Below, piece by piece: positions 61,201 through 64,000 of a stretch of DNA of 64,000 nt. This DNA comes from Chloroflexota bacterium (lineage in GTDB: Bacteria; Chloroflexota; Dormibacteria; Dormibacterales; Dormibacteraceae). A model generated the notes under the pieces. That model worked only from the letters and a program-made list of their open reading frames with translations. It was not told the DNA's origin and searched no databases. The stretch lies in contig VBGR01000048.1 in NCBI GenBank assembly GCA_005880695.1, positions 1 to 64,000 of the forward strand, written 5' to 3'. The stretch's first letter is position 1. The number at the start of each line of letters is the position of its first letter. Both the position numbers and the translations under genes were made by a program.

Positions 61201-61307
61201 GAGATCGCAAGCCTAGCCCAACCACCTGGGCCCATGTGGTGGACGAACACTAGACGGCTGGCGGTGGCCTTGTGCGCCGGTCACTAGACGCGCACGGGCG
61301 CATGGCG

Positions 61308-61313
61308 TAGCAT
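61308..61313 (+). promoter_or_regulatory. Possible -10 box (TAGCAT) of the ilv leader transcript
   Basis: TAGCAT ends 10 bases before the ATG of the leader peptide, so a transcript from it would have almost no 5' leader. No convincing -35 box at the right distance. No Shine-Dalgarno site precedes the leader ATG, which agrees with leaderless translation. Confidence 0.35.
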
Positions 61314-61323
61314 CGCTGACTCG

Positions 61324-61392
61324 ATGCGCAGCTTTGCGGGCCTCATCCTCGTACTCCGTGCCCTTGAGAGGGCGGGGCCGCCGGCGCGCTGA
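61324..61392 (+). CDS. ilv leader peptide for transcription attenuation (22 residues)
   Basis: Twenty-two codons reading MRSFAGLILVLRALERAGPPAR, within which seven are for Leu, Ile or Val, clustered at codons 7-14 (L-I-L-V-L-x-x-L). It ends 14 bases before the attenuator stem begins. Ribosome stalling at these codons when branched-chain amino acids are short would let an antiterminator form. The arrangement matches known ilvB/leu leaders of enterobacteria and actinobacteria in design, though the sequence itself differs. Confidence 0.7.
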   Translation: MRSFAGLILVLRALERAGPPAR

Positions 61393-61448
61393 AAAGAGAG
61401 TCAGCCTGCGAAGCCCCTGCCCAGACCGGGTGGGGGCTTCGCATTTTT
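61370..61448 (+). terminator. ilv attenuator: antiterminator arm and rho-independent terminator
   Basis: Terminator stem TGCGAAGCCCC (61407-61417) pairs with GGGGCTTCGCA (61433-61443), an 11-bp perfect stem with a 15-base loop, followed by TTTTT (61444-61448). GGGCGGGGC (61370-61378), inside the leader peptide coding region, can pair with GCCCCTGCCC (61413-61422), which overlaps the terminator's left arm; the two structures exclude each other. The ilvB ribosome site GAGGAG follows the T-run at once. Confidence 0.8.
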
Positions 61449-61463
61449 GAGGAGACCGAATAG

Positions 61464-63152
61464 ATGACAGGAGCGGACATGGTCCTCGAAGCCCTCGAAA
61501 GGGAGGGAGTCGAGATCATCTTCGGCTACCCGGGCGGGGCCAACCTGCCCCTCTATCAGCGTCTCCCCGCGCACCCCAAGCTGCGTCACATCCTCGTCCG
61601 CCACGAGCAGGGCGCCGCCCACATGGCCGACGGGTACGCACGAGCCACGGGCAGGCCCGGCATCGTCTTCGCCACCTCCGGCCCGGGCGCGCTGAACCTG
61701 GTCACGGGCCTCTGTACTGCCTTCATGGACTCGGTACCGATGATCGCGATCACCGGCCAGGTGCCGACCGCCGTGGTCGGGCGGGACGCTTTCCAGGAGT
61801 CCGACGTGATCGGCTGCACACAGTCGGTCACCAAGCACAGCTACCTCGTGACCAAGGTCGCCGATATCCCGCGCGTCATCAGCGAGGCTTTCCATATCGC
61901 CGCCACCGGCCGGCCCGGCCCGGTCCTGATCGACATCTGCCGCGATGTTCAGCAGGCGGAGGGGGGCGACTTCGAATATAGCTACTGCTCGGTGCTGCCC
62001 GGCTACAAGCCCGCCCTGGAGCCCGACCTGGTCCAGGTCGAGCGCGCGGCCGAAATGCTGGCCGGCGCCCGCCGGCCCGTGATCCTGGCCGGTCACGGAG
62101 TGATCCTGAGCCACGCCGAGCAGGAGCTGCTGGAGGTGGCCGAGAGGTCGGGCACCCCCGTTGGTACCACGCTTCTCGGAGTGGGCGCCTTCCCGGTCCA
62201 GCACCCGCTGGCCCTGCACATGACCGGGTTCATGGGAACCGGCTGGAACATCAAGGCCGTACAGAACGCCGACCTCCTGATGATGGTCGGCATGCGCGTC
62301 GACGACCGCGTAACGGCCAAGCTCAGCGAGTGGGCGCCAAAGGCGGAGTCCTTCGTGCACATCGACATCGACGCCAGCGAGATGGGCAAGAACGTGCGGC
62401 CGCACCTCGAGGTCGTTGCCGACGCCAAGCGCGCGCTGACCGCGATGGCTCCGTACGTCAAGCCGCCGCCTGCCGACCGCGGTGAGTGGCTGACGCAGAT
62501 CGACGCTTGGCGCGAAGAGCACCCCCTCAAGTACTCGCGCTCGAACGGCCACCTGCAGCCGCAGGACGTCCTGATCGACATGTACCGGCGCTGCCAGGAC
62601 GAGGCCATCGTCGTGGCGGACGTCGGCCAGAACCAGATCTGGGCCGCGCTTTGGTGGAATTACACGAAGCCCGGTCTCTTCCTCAACTCAGGCGGCTCAG
62701 GCACCATGGGTTTCGCCTTCCCCGCGGCGCTGGGGGCCAAGTTTGGGCGACCGGACAAGGACGTCTGGTGCGTCGCCGGCGAGGGCGGTTTCGTGATGAC
62801 GGCCCAGGAGCTCTCCGTTGCTGTCGAGCACCAGGTGCCGGTCAAGATCGTCCTCCTCAACAACTTCAGCCTGGGCATGGTCCGCCAGTTCCAGGACGAC
62901 TTTTACGGCGGGGTTAGGTCCGAGGTCGACCTCACGGTGATGCCCGACTTCGTGAAGCTGGCCGAAGCCTACGGGTTGAAAGCCCGGCGCGTAGACAGGT
63001 ACGAGGAGATCAAGCCGGCCTTCGATGAGGCCCAGGCCACACCCGGGCCCTTCCTGATCGACTTCCGGATCGACCCCGAGGCCAACGTCTACCCGATCGT
63101 GCCGCTCGGCAAGGGCCTGGACGACTTCTGGGAGCTGCCTAACGGTGCATAG
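61464..63152 (+). CDS. ilvB: Acetolactate synthase, large (catalytic) subunit
   Basis: 562 residues. ThDP enzyme for the first step of Val/Leu/Ile synthesis. GYPGGANLPLYQRL, the activating Glu in RHEQGAAHMADGYAR, SGPGALNLVTGL, the FAD/beta domain and the C-terminal ThDP domain. The Mg-ThDP motif usually GDG is GEG here (Glu440 in AGEGGFVMT) followed by the conserved NN about 27 residues later (LLNNFSLGMVRQ). Regulated by the leader attenuator upstream. The ATG has a GAGGAG site. Overlaps ilvN by 8 bases. Confidence 0.94.
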   Translation: MTGADMVLEALEREGVEIIFGYPGGANLPLYQRLPAHPKLRHILVRHEQGAAHMADGYARATGRPGIVFATSGPGALNLVTGLCTAFMDSVPMIAITGQVPTAVVGRDAFQESDVIGCTQSVTKHSYLVTKVADIPRVISEAFHIAATGRPGPVLIDICRDVQQAEGGDFEYSYCSVLPGYKPALEPDLVQVERAAEMLAGARRPVILAGHGVILSHAEQELLEVAERSGTPVGTTLLGVGAFPVQHPLALHMTGFMGTGWNIKAVQNADLLMMVGMRVDDRVTAKLSEWAPKAESFVHIDIDASEMGKNVRPHLEVVADAKRALTAMAPYVKPPPADRGEWLTQIDAWREEHPLKYSRSNGHLQPQDVLIDMYRRCQDEAIVVADVGQNQIWAALWWNYTKPGLFLNSGGSGTMGFAFPAALGAKFGRPDKDVWCVAGEGGFVMTAQELSVAVEHQVPVKIVLLNNFSLGMVRQFQDDFYGGVRSEVDLTVMPDFVKLAEAYGLKARRVDRYEEIKPAFDEAQATPGPFLIDFRIDPEANVYPIVPLGKGLDDFWELPNGA

Positions 63153-63597
63153 CCAGCTCCGGGTCTTGCGCGTGCTGGTGGAGGACAACCCGGGCGTGAT
63201 GGCGCGCGTGAGCGGCATGATCCGGCGCCGCGGCTTCAACATCGAGACCATCACCGTCGGCCCCAGCACCGAGCCGGGCCGCTCACGGATGACGCTCACT
63301 GTCGACGCCGGCCACGCCGAGGTCGACCAGGTGGCCAAGCAGCTCGACCGCTTGATCGAGGTGATCGAGGTCGAGGACATCACCGACGCGCCGACCGTCA
63401 GCCGCGAGCTCCTGATCGCCAAGCTCGACAAGGTTCCGCCGACGGTCGAGCAGTACGGCGCCCGCCAGCTCGCCACCGGCATCGTAGAGCTGACGGCCGA
63501 CTCGGAGACAGTCGAGGAATTCATCGAGTTCCTGAAGCCTTTCGGCATCAAAGAGCTGGCCCGGACCGGGCCCGTAGCCATGAGGAGAAGCGCCTAG
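63145..63597 (+). CDS. ilvN: Acetolactate synthase, small (regulatory) subunit
   Basis: 150 residues from GTG 63145. N-terminal ACT domain ([31 protein letters not shown]) that binds valine for feedback control, then the C-terminal domain with [13 protein letters not shown] and [26 protein letters not shown]. Stabilises and regulates IlvB. Ends one codon before the small ORF at the ilvC junction. Confidence 0.95.
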
Positions 63598-63732
63598 ATG
63601 ACGGTGAAGATGTACTACGACCAGGGGGGTGCGGTCCGTCGGGGCTTGTACCCGCGGACCGTTTCGAGGGGGGATGCCCCCCTCGCACACCGTCCGAGTC
63701 GCTCGATGCAAGGAGGGACTGTGGCCCGATGA
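63598..63732 (+). CDS. Small ORF (44 residues) beginning like IlvC
   Basis: Begins MTVKMYYDQ, mirroring the IlvC start (MKMFYDKD), then reads a low-complexity stretch [11 protein letters not shown] and so on through two hairpins, ending in a TGA that overlaps the ilvC ATG (ATGA). It has its own GAGGAGA ribosome site inside the ilvN end. It looks like a duplicated ilvC 5' end separated from the gene by an inserted GC element; it may be translated and coupled to ilvC. Confidence 0.45.
63632..63685. repeat. Two adjacent GC-rich hairpins in front of ilvC
   Basis: CGGTCCG (63632-63638) pairs with CGGACCG (63655-63661), and CGAGGGGG (63665-63672) with CCCCCTCG (63678-63685). No U-run follows. The second stem resembles the G/C-run hairpins at 12018-12038 and 46280-46296. 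Could tune ilvC expression within the operon. Confidence 0.55.
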
Positions 63733-64000
63733 AAATGTTTTACGACAAGGACTGCCCTCCGAAGCTTGGGGAAAGGGTCGCCATCCTCGGGTACGGCTCG
63801 CAGGGCCGCGCTCATGCCCTGAATCTGAAGGAGAGCGGCGAGGACGTAACCGTCGGGCTCTACGCCGGCAGCCGTTCGCGGGACCGCGCCGAGGCCGACG
63901 GGGTGAAGGTCGCCGACGTCGCGGAGGCGGTGGCGGGGGCCACGGTGGTCATGGTCCTGACGCCCGACACGGGCCAGGCCAGGCTCTACCGGGACGCCAT
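63729..64000 (+). CDS. ilvC: Ketol-acid reductoisomerase, N-terminal part (runs off window end)
   Basis: 91 residues visible. [19 protein letters not shown] leads into the NADPH-binding [17 protein letters not shown], then GLYAGSRSR and [12 protein letters not shown]. The residue after GSQG is Arg where most enzymes have His (GSQGHAHAL). Second common step of Val/Leu/Ile synthesis. The AGGAGG site is at 63711-63716. The gene continues beyond the window. Confidence 0.93.

Follow-up and report, generated by a model that had tools for sequence, protein, structure and literature searches.

A leader peptide, terminator and exclusive antiterminator before ilvBNC in Candidatus Dormibacterota point to ribosome-mediated attenuation

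The window (the whole stretch of DNA that was analysed, 64,000 nucleotides) comes from Candidatus Dormibacterota, an uncultured soil bacterium with a 2.8-Mb genome, and its IlvB is 98% identical to the IlvB of Candidatus Dormibacteraeota metagenome bins, the closest named relatives. The plus strand carries, in this order, a leader ORF, a terminator, ilvB, ilvN and ilvC. The leuC and leuD genes lie divergently on the minus strand, and a pheA-like frame stands downstream of ilvC outside the window; these three, like ilvC, were named from sequence. The features are as follows.

61269-61287, strand unassigned: putative transcription-factor operator CTTGTG-N7-CACTAG, a degenerate form of the family consensus TTTGTG-N7-CACAAM
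61285-61313, plus: putative promoter, TAGACG (61285-61290), 17-nt spacer and TAGCAT -10 box (61308-61313), placed by the -10 spacing across leaders
61324-61392, plus: leader ORF MRSFAGLILVLRALERAGPPAR, 22 codons, stop UGA at 61390-61392, without Shine-Dalgarno sequence and predicted to be nearly leaderless
61342-61356, plus: predicted sensing codons 7-11, CTC ATC CTC GTA CTC (Leu Ile Leu Val Leu), where a stall would free the 14-pair antiterminator
61370-61382, plus: antiterminator 5' strand GGGCGGGGCCGCC, within the leader ORF (sequence and folding)
61407-61422, plus: left arm UGCGAAGCCCCUGCCC, common to terminator and antiterminator (sequence and folding)
61428-61448, plus: terminator right arm (61428-61443), then T5 run (61444-61448) (sequence and folding)
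61449-61454, plus: Shine-Dalgarno sequence GAGGAG of ilvB
61464-63152, plus: ilvB, acetolactate synthase large subunit, the regulated gene (TIGR00118, 699.7 bits, cut-off 538)
63145-63597, plus: ilvN, acetolactate synthase small (regulatory) subunit (ACT_AHAS_ss and ALS_ss_C)
63729-64000, plus: start of ilvC, which runs past the window end (351-aa frame in L124)

By its sequence, IlvB belongs to the biosynthetic acetolactate synthases. The stretch that separates ilvN from ilvC (63598-63728) contains a frame starting MTVKMYYDQ, which resembles a second, decayed ilvC start (the true start reads MKMFYDKD) and is followed by GC-rich inverted repeats; it has the look of an insertion that moved the start of ilvC. 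Palindromic REP-like elements of the CTCCCCATTCATGGGGAGGTGTCGGGCGGAGCCCGACGG type were observed close to ilv genes in several family genomes (L021, L023, L024, L026).

The leader ORF contains Leu/Ile/Val (LIV) codons at positions 7 (Leu), 8 (Ile), 9 (Leu), 10 (Val), 11 (Leu) and 14 (Leu). A prior reading of the sequence only had described a 22-codon frame with an LIV cluster at codons 7-14 and only Arg and Ala between, all of which holds, except that the LIV codons number six and not seven. If an LIV-rich frame had come to lie beside a terminator by chance, with no regulatory role in this genome, it would have drawn on a background in which LIV make up 23.5% of residues and short runs do occur. 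However, among the window's 190 small ORFs of 18-35 codons in six frames, only the leader ORF has at least six LIV in eight codons, and the arrangement recurs in every family genome that could be tested and in other families as well (see below), which makes coincidence extremely unlikely. Codon choice was also examined, with the window's own 41 genes as the only background. Leaders prefer codons that are rare in these genes: ATT accounts for 75% of Ile codons in main-family leaders versus 4% in window genes, GTA for 57% versus 4.5% of Val codons, and CTT for 35% versus 8.6% of Leu codons. In the leaders of two other families, f2 and f4, ATT makes up 78% of Ile codons.

In 52 of 54 leaders, a -10 box ends 9-12 nt ahead of the start codon, and most f2 and all f4 rows also carry a TTGACN -35 box at 17-18 nt; a strict promoter scan did not list the window promoter. 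Most f4 leaders have a TTG start with TATA-type -10 boxes 5' of it. Most leaders show poor Shine-Dalgarno pairing ahead of their start codon; ilvB of the window has GAGGAG. Given this -10 spacing and the poor Shine-Dalgarno pairing, the 5' end of the leader RNA is expected at the start codon or a few nucleotides from it, which would make this RNA nearly leaderless. In most of 30 family sequences, a TTTGTG-N7-CACAAM dyad was found whose 3' end is mostly 36-39 nt before the leader start. It is likely a transcription-factor site in the leuCD/ilvBNC divergent region. The dyad (family loci L002-L034, L044, L112) sits roughly where f2 and f4 have their -35 box.

The terminator stem comprises 16 bp (61407-61422 / 61428-61443, -32.8 kcal/mol). 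The earlier description of a GC stem followed by a T5 run was correct as to the run, and its 11-bp stem is extended to 16. Within a 401-nt stretch, one terminator-like site was found versus 0.2 expected from shuffles, and the folding of 61320-61450 that the same reading had proposed gave a z-score of -2.7. That reading had further claimed that the leader can pair with the terminator left arm in a mutually exclusive fold. The pairing is real: GGGCGGGGC (61370-61378) pairs with GCCCC-U-GCCC in the left arm with one bulged U and, with its flanks, extends to 14 pairs. Pairing between the ORF end and the left arm in the window reaches -29.9 kcal/mol versus -17.8 kcal/mol for synonymous recodings (P = 0.002). 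Of 30 family sequences, 25 reached P < 0.05 in the same comparison, which was mostly not significant sequence by sequence in f2 and f4 (P 0.002-0.37), these values not being independent of one another since the leaders share ancestry.

The terminator stem is kept in 30 of 30 family sequences, and the proposed search for covariation yielded one compensatory A-U/G-C position in it. RNAalifold on a MAFFT alignment recovered the terminator core and three doubtful pairs only, because some left arms align out of register, and the pairing was therefore tested one sequence at a time. For the finished full transcript at equilibrium, the terminator is always preferred (P = 1.00), so that the switch would have to be kinetic. 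Kinetic switching is usual for ribosome-mediated attenuators. A selected protector hairpin formed by 1:2 pairing was considered and gained no support from the controls: the 1:2 fold is present in naked RNA on folding, and in the window its pairing does not exceed that of synonymous recodings (P = 0.38), which leaves the behaviour without any translation uncertain.

We modeled which pairs survive when a ribosome occupies the leader. In the window, a ribosome with its A-site at codons 7-11 spares 14 antiterminator pairs (-31.6 kcal/mol as long as the right arm has not been transcribed), one at codon 14 spares five, and from codon 18 onward none are left. Codon 14 (Leu) is, on this modeling, not productive for sensing, since stalling at that codon already places the ribosome over the antiterminator core. 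We defined the edge of the permissive zone as the last position where a stalled ribosome leaves the antiterminator free. In 53 leaders from three families, the LIV cluster lies within the permissive zone, upstream of its edge and ending near it, and 244 of 278 LIV codons in the counted subset of leaders are permissive. Leader peptide sequence varies between families and the geometry is kept. The rule on where the LIV cluster ends provides a simple, alignment-free test for such leaders elsewhere.

The locus combines an ORF with clustered end-product codons, an intrinsic terminator between this ORF and the first gene, and, by computation, an antiterminator that is exclusive with the terminator and is freed or covered according to ribosome position. 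Very probably, the element controls the ilvBNC operon by ribosome-mediated transcription attenuation, with charged Leu, Ile and Val tRNA as the signal. The start site, ribosome stalling, termination and response to amino acids are predicted to proceed as follows. Transcription would start at the leader AUG or a few bases before it, and a ribosome would load on the nearly leaderless RNA. When Leu-, Ile- or Val-tRNA is scarce, the ribosome would stall at codons 7-11, leaving the end of the leader frame naked to pair with the left arm on its emergence; with this antiterminator in place the terminator would come too late, and RNA polymerase would proceed into ilvB. When the amino acids are plentiful, the ribosome would reach codons 16-22 and the stop, covering the antiterminator strand, so that the 16-bp terminator would form and transcription would stop near 61448.

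Conservation was assessed with an RNA model built from 14 family ilvB upstream sequences and run over 110 genomes of the class. Matches were found in 37 of 42 family genomes and in six f2 genomes; the five family genomes without a match lack the 5' region of ilvB, having either no strong match to the gene or a contig edge at it. The sequence-only reading had named as refuting its proposal the case that relatives keep the hairpin and lack the frame or its codon bias. The opposite was found, as the frame, the LIV cluster, the GGGGC antiterminator segment and the terminator are kept in all family genomes whose ilvB upstream region can be read, a result that supports the attenuation design put forward in the sequence-only reading. 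Beyond the family, diverged versions with the same geometry occur in f2 and f4: direct inspection of ilvB upstream regions revealed LIV leaders together with terminators in 17 genomes of f2 as well as in genomes of f4, and these elements are independent versions. A match in G101 (family f3) lies on a 5.1-kb contig with an f1-type leader and was set aside as probably a stray contig.

The leader peptides read ..LVLLLGLLGLIG..GARA in the main family (f1), MTYAAVLVLLLGLLLIRGGASRLQ.. in f2 and ..ALVLLITGG.VS in f4. Such peptides are hydrophobic and alike within the family (..LLGLIG..GARA), as would be expected if the small ORF encoded a functional peptide, for instance a small membrane protein, and the hairpin were an ordinary terminator or an mRNA-stability element. 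We consider this very unlikely, since the conservation extends to codon choice (the ATT preference given above), the pairing exceeds synonymous controls, and the peptide varies between families where the geometry does not; moreover, a terminator between the promoter and ilvB would otherwise block a biosynthetic operon.

Several further observations were made in the course of these scans. In f4 (L049-L052, L120-L122, L272-L280), a short conserved gene, ..EDIALSEAGRNWVRRRHAAEP..RRLAADAAVTASIASAYGTD, stands between the attenuator and ilvB. Second model matches occur also in G001, G008 and G013; those in G008 and G013 (L249, L252) have leader-like frames, VKVRVVAEIGGLLLLRGAGKRVP and MRTRIVIPVRALEGAGRGTL, and terminators, and no amino-acid gene was recognised next to them. 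A quick scan outside the class found LIV-rich small ORFs (e.g., MNALSNLVVLSLVLVIVLIIRNKDHMLLGEG) before ilvB in some Chloroflexota and in one Sorangium bin (L073, L079, L092, L096, L103, L110), some with a terminator-like hairpin. A simple scan for Trp leaders before trpE in relatives returned no convincing W-rich leader.

Control of the terminator by a trans-acting factor or by a tRNA or ligand riboswitch (T-box, ppGpp riboswitch or other), with the ORF incidental, was weighed against the preferred reading; in its favour, sister genera within the class do have T-boxes 5' of ilvB. In an Rfam covariance search no family, including the ilv and leu leaders and the ilvB motifs, reaches its gathering threshold at the site; matches to rnk_pseudo and Ms_AS-4 at the locus were weak, at chance level, and were rejected. 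The T-box model (RF00230) has no covariance match at the window site and none in G000, no T-box motif was seen in the family leaders, and those T-boxes of the family that were looked at precede an ileS-like gene. Since the leader ORF also takes up most of the RNA between promoter and terminator, we regard such a device as highly improbable here and retain the ribosome as the probable sensor.

In two f2 genera, g17 and g26, and in f3 genus g22, ilvB showed no LIV leader. T-box covariance matches before ilvB were obtained in G039, G046 and G059 (E 1e-5 to 1e-8, below the gathering score), and a T-box sequence motif was found before ilvB in G065 and G066. The loci with a T-box or T-box motif directly 5' of ilvB are L114, L118, L119, L270 and L271. 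On an IlvB tree (midpoint rooting, long branches flagged), the T-box rows of f2 group in a single clade and f3 stands beside f1, and two T-box gains would be the shortest history on this topology, a lead that is subject to the same rooting and branch lengths. Between phyla, T-boxes and leader peptides are documented to have taken each other's place (PMC2965389). As a lead, then, the T-box may have replaced the attenuator at ilvB in some genera.

Genera g3 and g10 have no canonical ilvB match. This same attenuator stands before leuA in G003 and G010, neither of which has canonical ilvB, and in G003, G010 and G016, the last likewise without canonical ilvB, it precedes a 589-591-aa ThDP enzyme (L246:407-2179, L247, L248:2005-3771); the sole model match in G016 is the one 5' of this enzyme. 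The enzyme matches TIGR00118 at E about 1e-13 to 1e-16, far below the cut-off, and is distant from acetolactate synthases. Its regulation suggests that it acts in branched-chain synthesis, and it is a candidate replacement acetolactate synthase. Here the attenuator serves as a regulation tag that hints at the function of a divergent enzyme.

A broader scheme can be drawn only tentatively, and it is rather doubtful in its entirety: a class-wide, two-hairpin, nearly leaderless Dormibacteria attenuator, in which the ribosome and not a protector hairpin covers the antiterminator strand, would be ancestral, would have given way to T-boxes at ilvB in some genera, and, where canonical ilvB is missing, would have been redeployed to leuA and the divergent ThDP enzyme, marking the latter as a candidate acetolactate synthase. 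The class offers a natural case in which the same operon stands behind a probable ribosome sensor in most genera and a T-box in others.

The mechanism is of a textbook kind and the lineage is little studied. The E. coli ilvBN (ivbL) and ilvGMEDA (ilvL) attenuators belong to the same mechanism class and sense the same amino acids; their leaders carry a ribosome-binding site in a longer 5' UTR and contain several hairpins. Leader-peptide attenuation of ilv operons is known in Proteobacteria and Actinobacteria (PMC1262725, PMC10272879). A literature text search of incomplete coverage returned no paper naming both Dormibacterota and riboswitch and none joining Chloroflexi, ilv and leader peptide, and within that search this is the first such attenuator that we could find for the phylum. 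Leader-peptide attenuation would thereby extend to a phylum known mostly from uncultured soil genomes, several dozen of which serve as comparative evidence, and the additions to the known mechanism would be its replacement by a T-box in certain genera and its spread to two other genes, leuA and the one for a divergent ThDP enzyme.

Among described systems, the T-box (RF00230) likewise stands 5' of ilvB, in sister genera of the class, but senses tRNA directly and is absent at the window site. The ilvB-OMG and ilvB (Leptospira) RNA motifs also have an upstream ORF rich in branched-chain codons before ilvB, with attenuation suggested, but their peptides are Thr-rich as well (PMC10272879), and no Rfam family reaches threshold here. 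The predicted ilvB leaders of Actinobacteria share the short ORF with runs of Ile, Val and Leu codons and the polyU terminator before ilvB; there the ORF overlaps the terminator hairpin, whereas here it ends 14 nt before the terminator stem (PMC1262725). For the Streptomyces coelicolor ilvB leader, a codon test was negative (PMC1262725). Transcription of Corynebacterium glutamicum ilvBNC is likewise reported to start close to the leader frame, one nucleotide away from its start codon, with CUU and GUA put forward as control codons (PMC11857589). That system (ilvL, PMC11857589; ilvB-II motif, PMC10272879) has the same operon, a leader peptide rich in branched-chain amino acids and a terminator/antiterminator overlap. 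It differs in its 15-aa peptide (22 aa here), in its phylum, and in a three-hairpin model with an anti-antiterminator hairpin (PMC11857589), a pairing that is not above synonymous controls in our leader. The likeness is one of design, and no sequence similarity is claimed.
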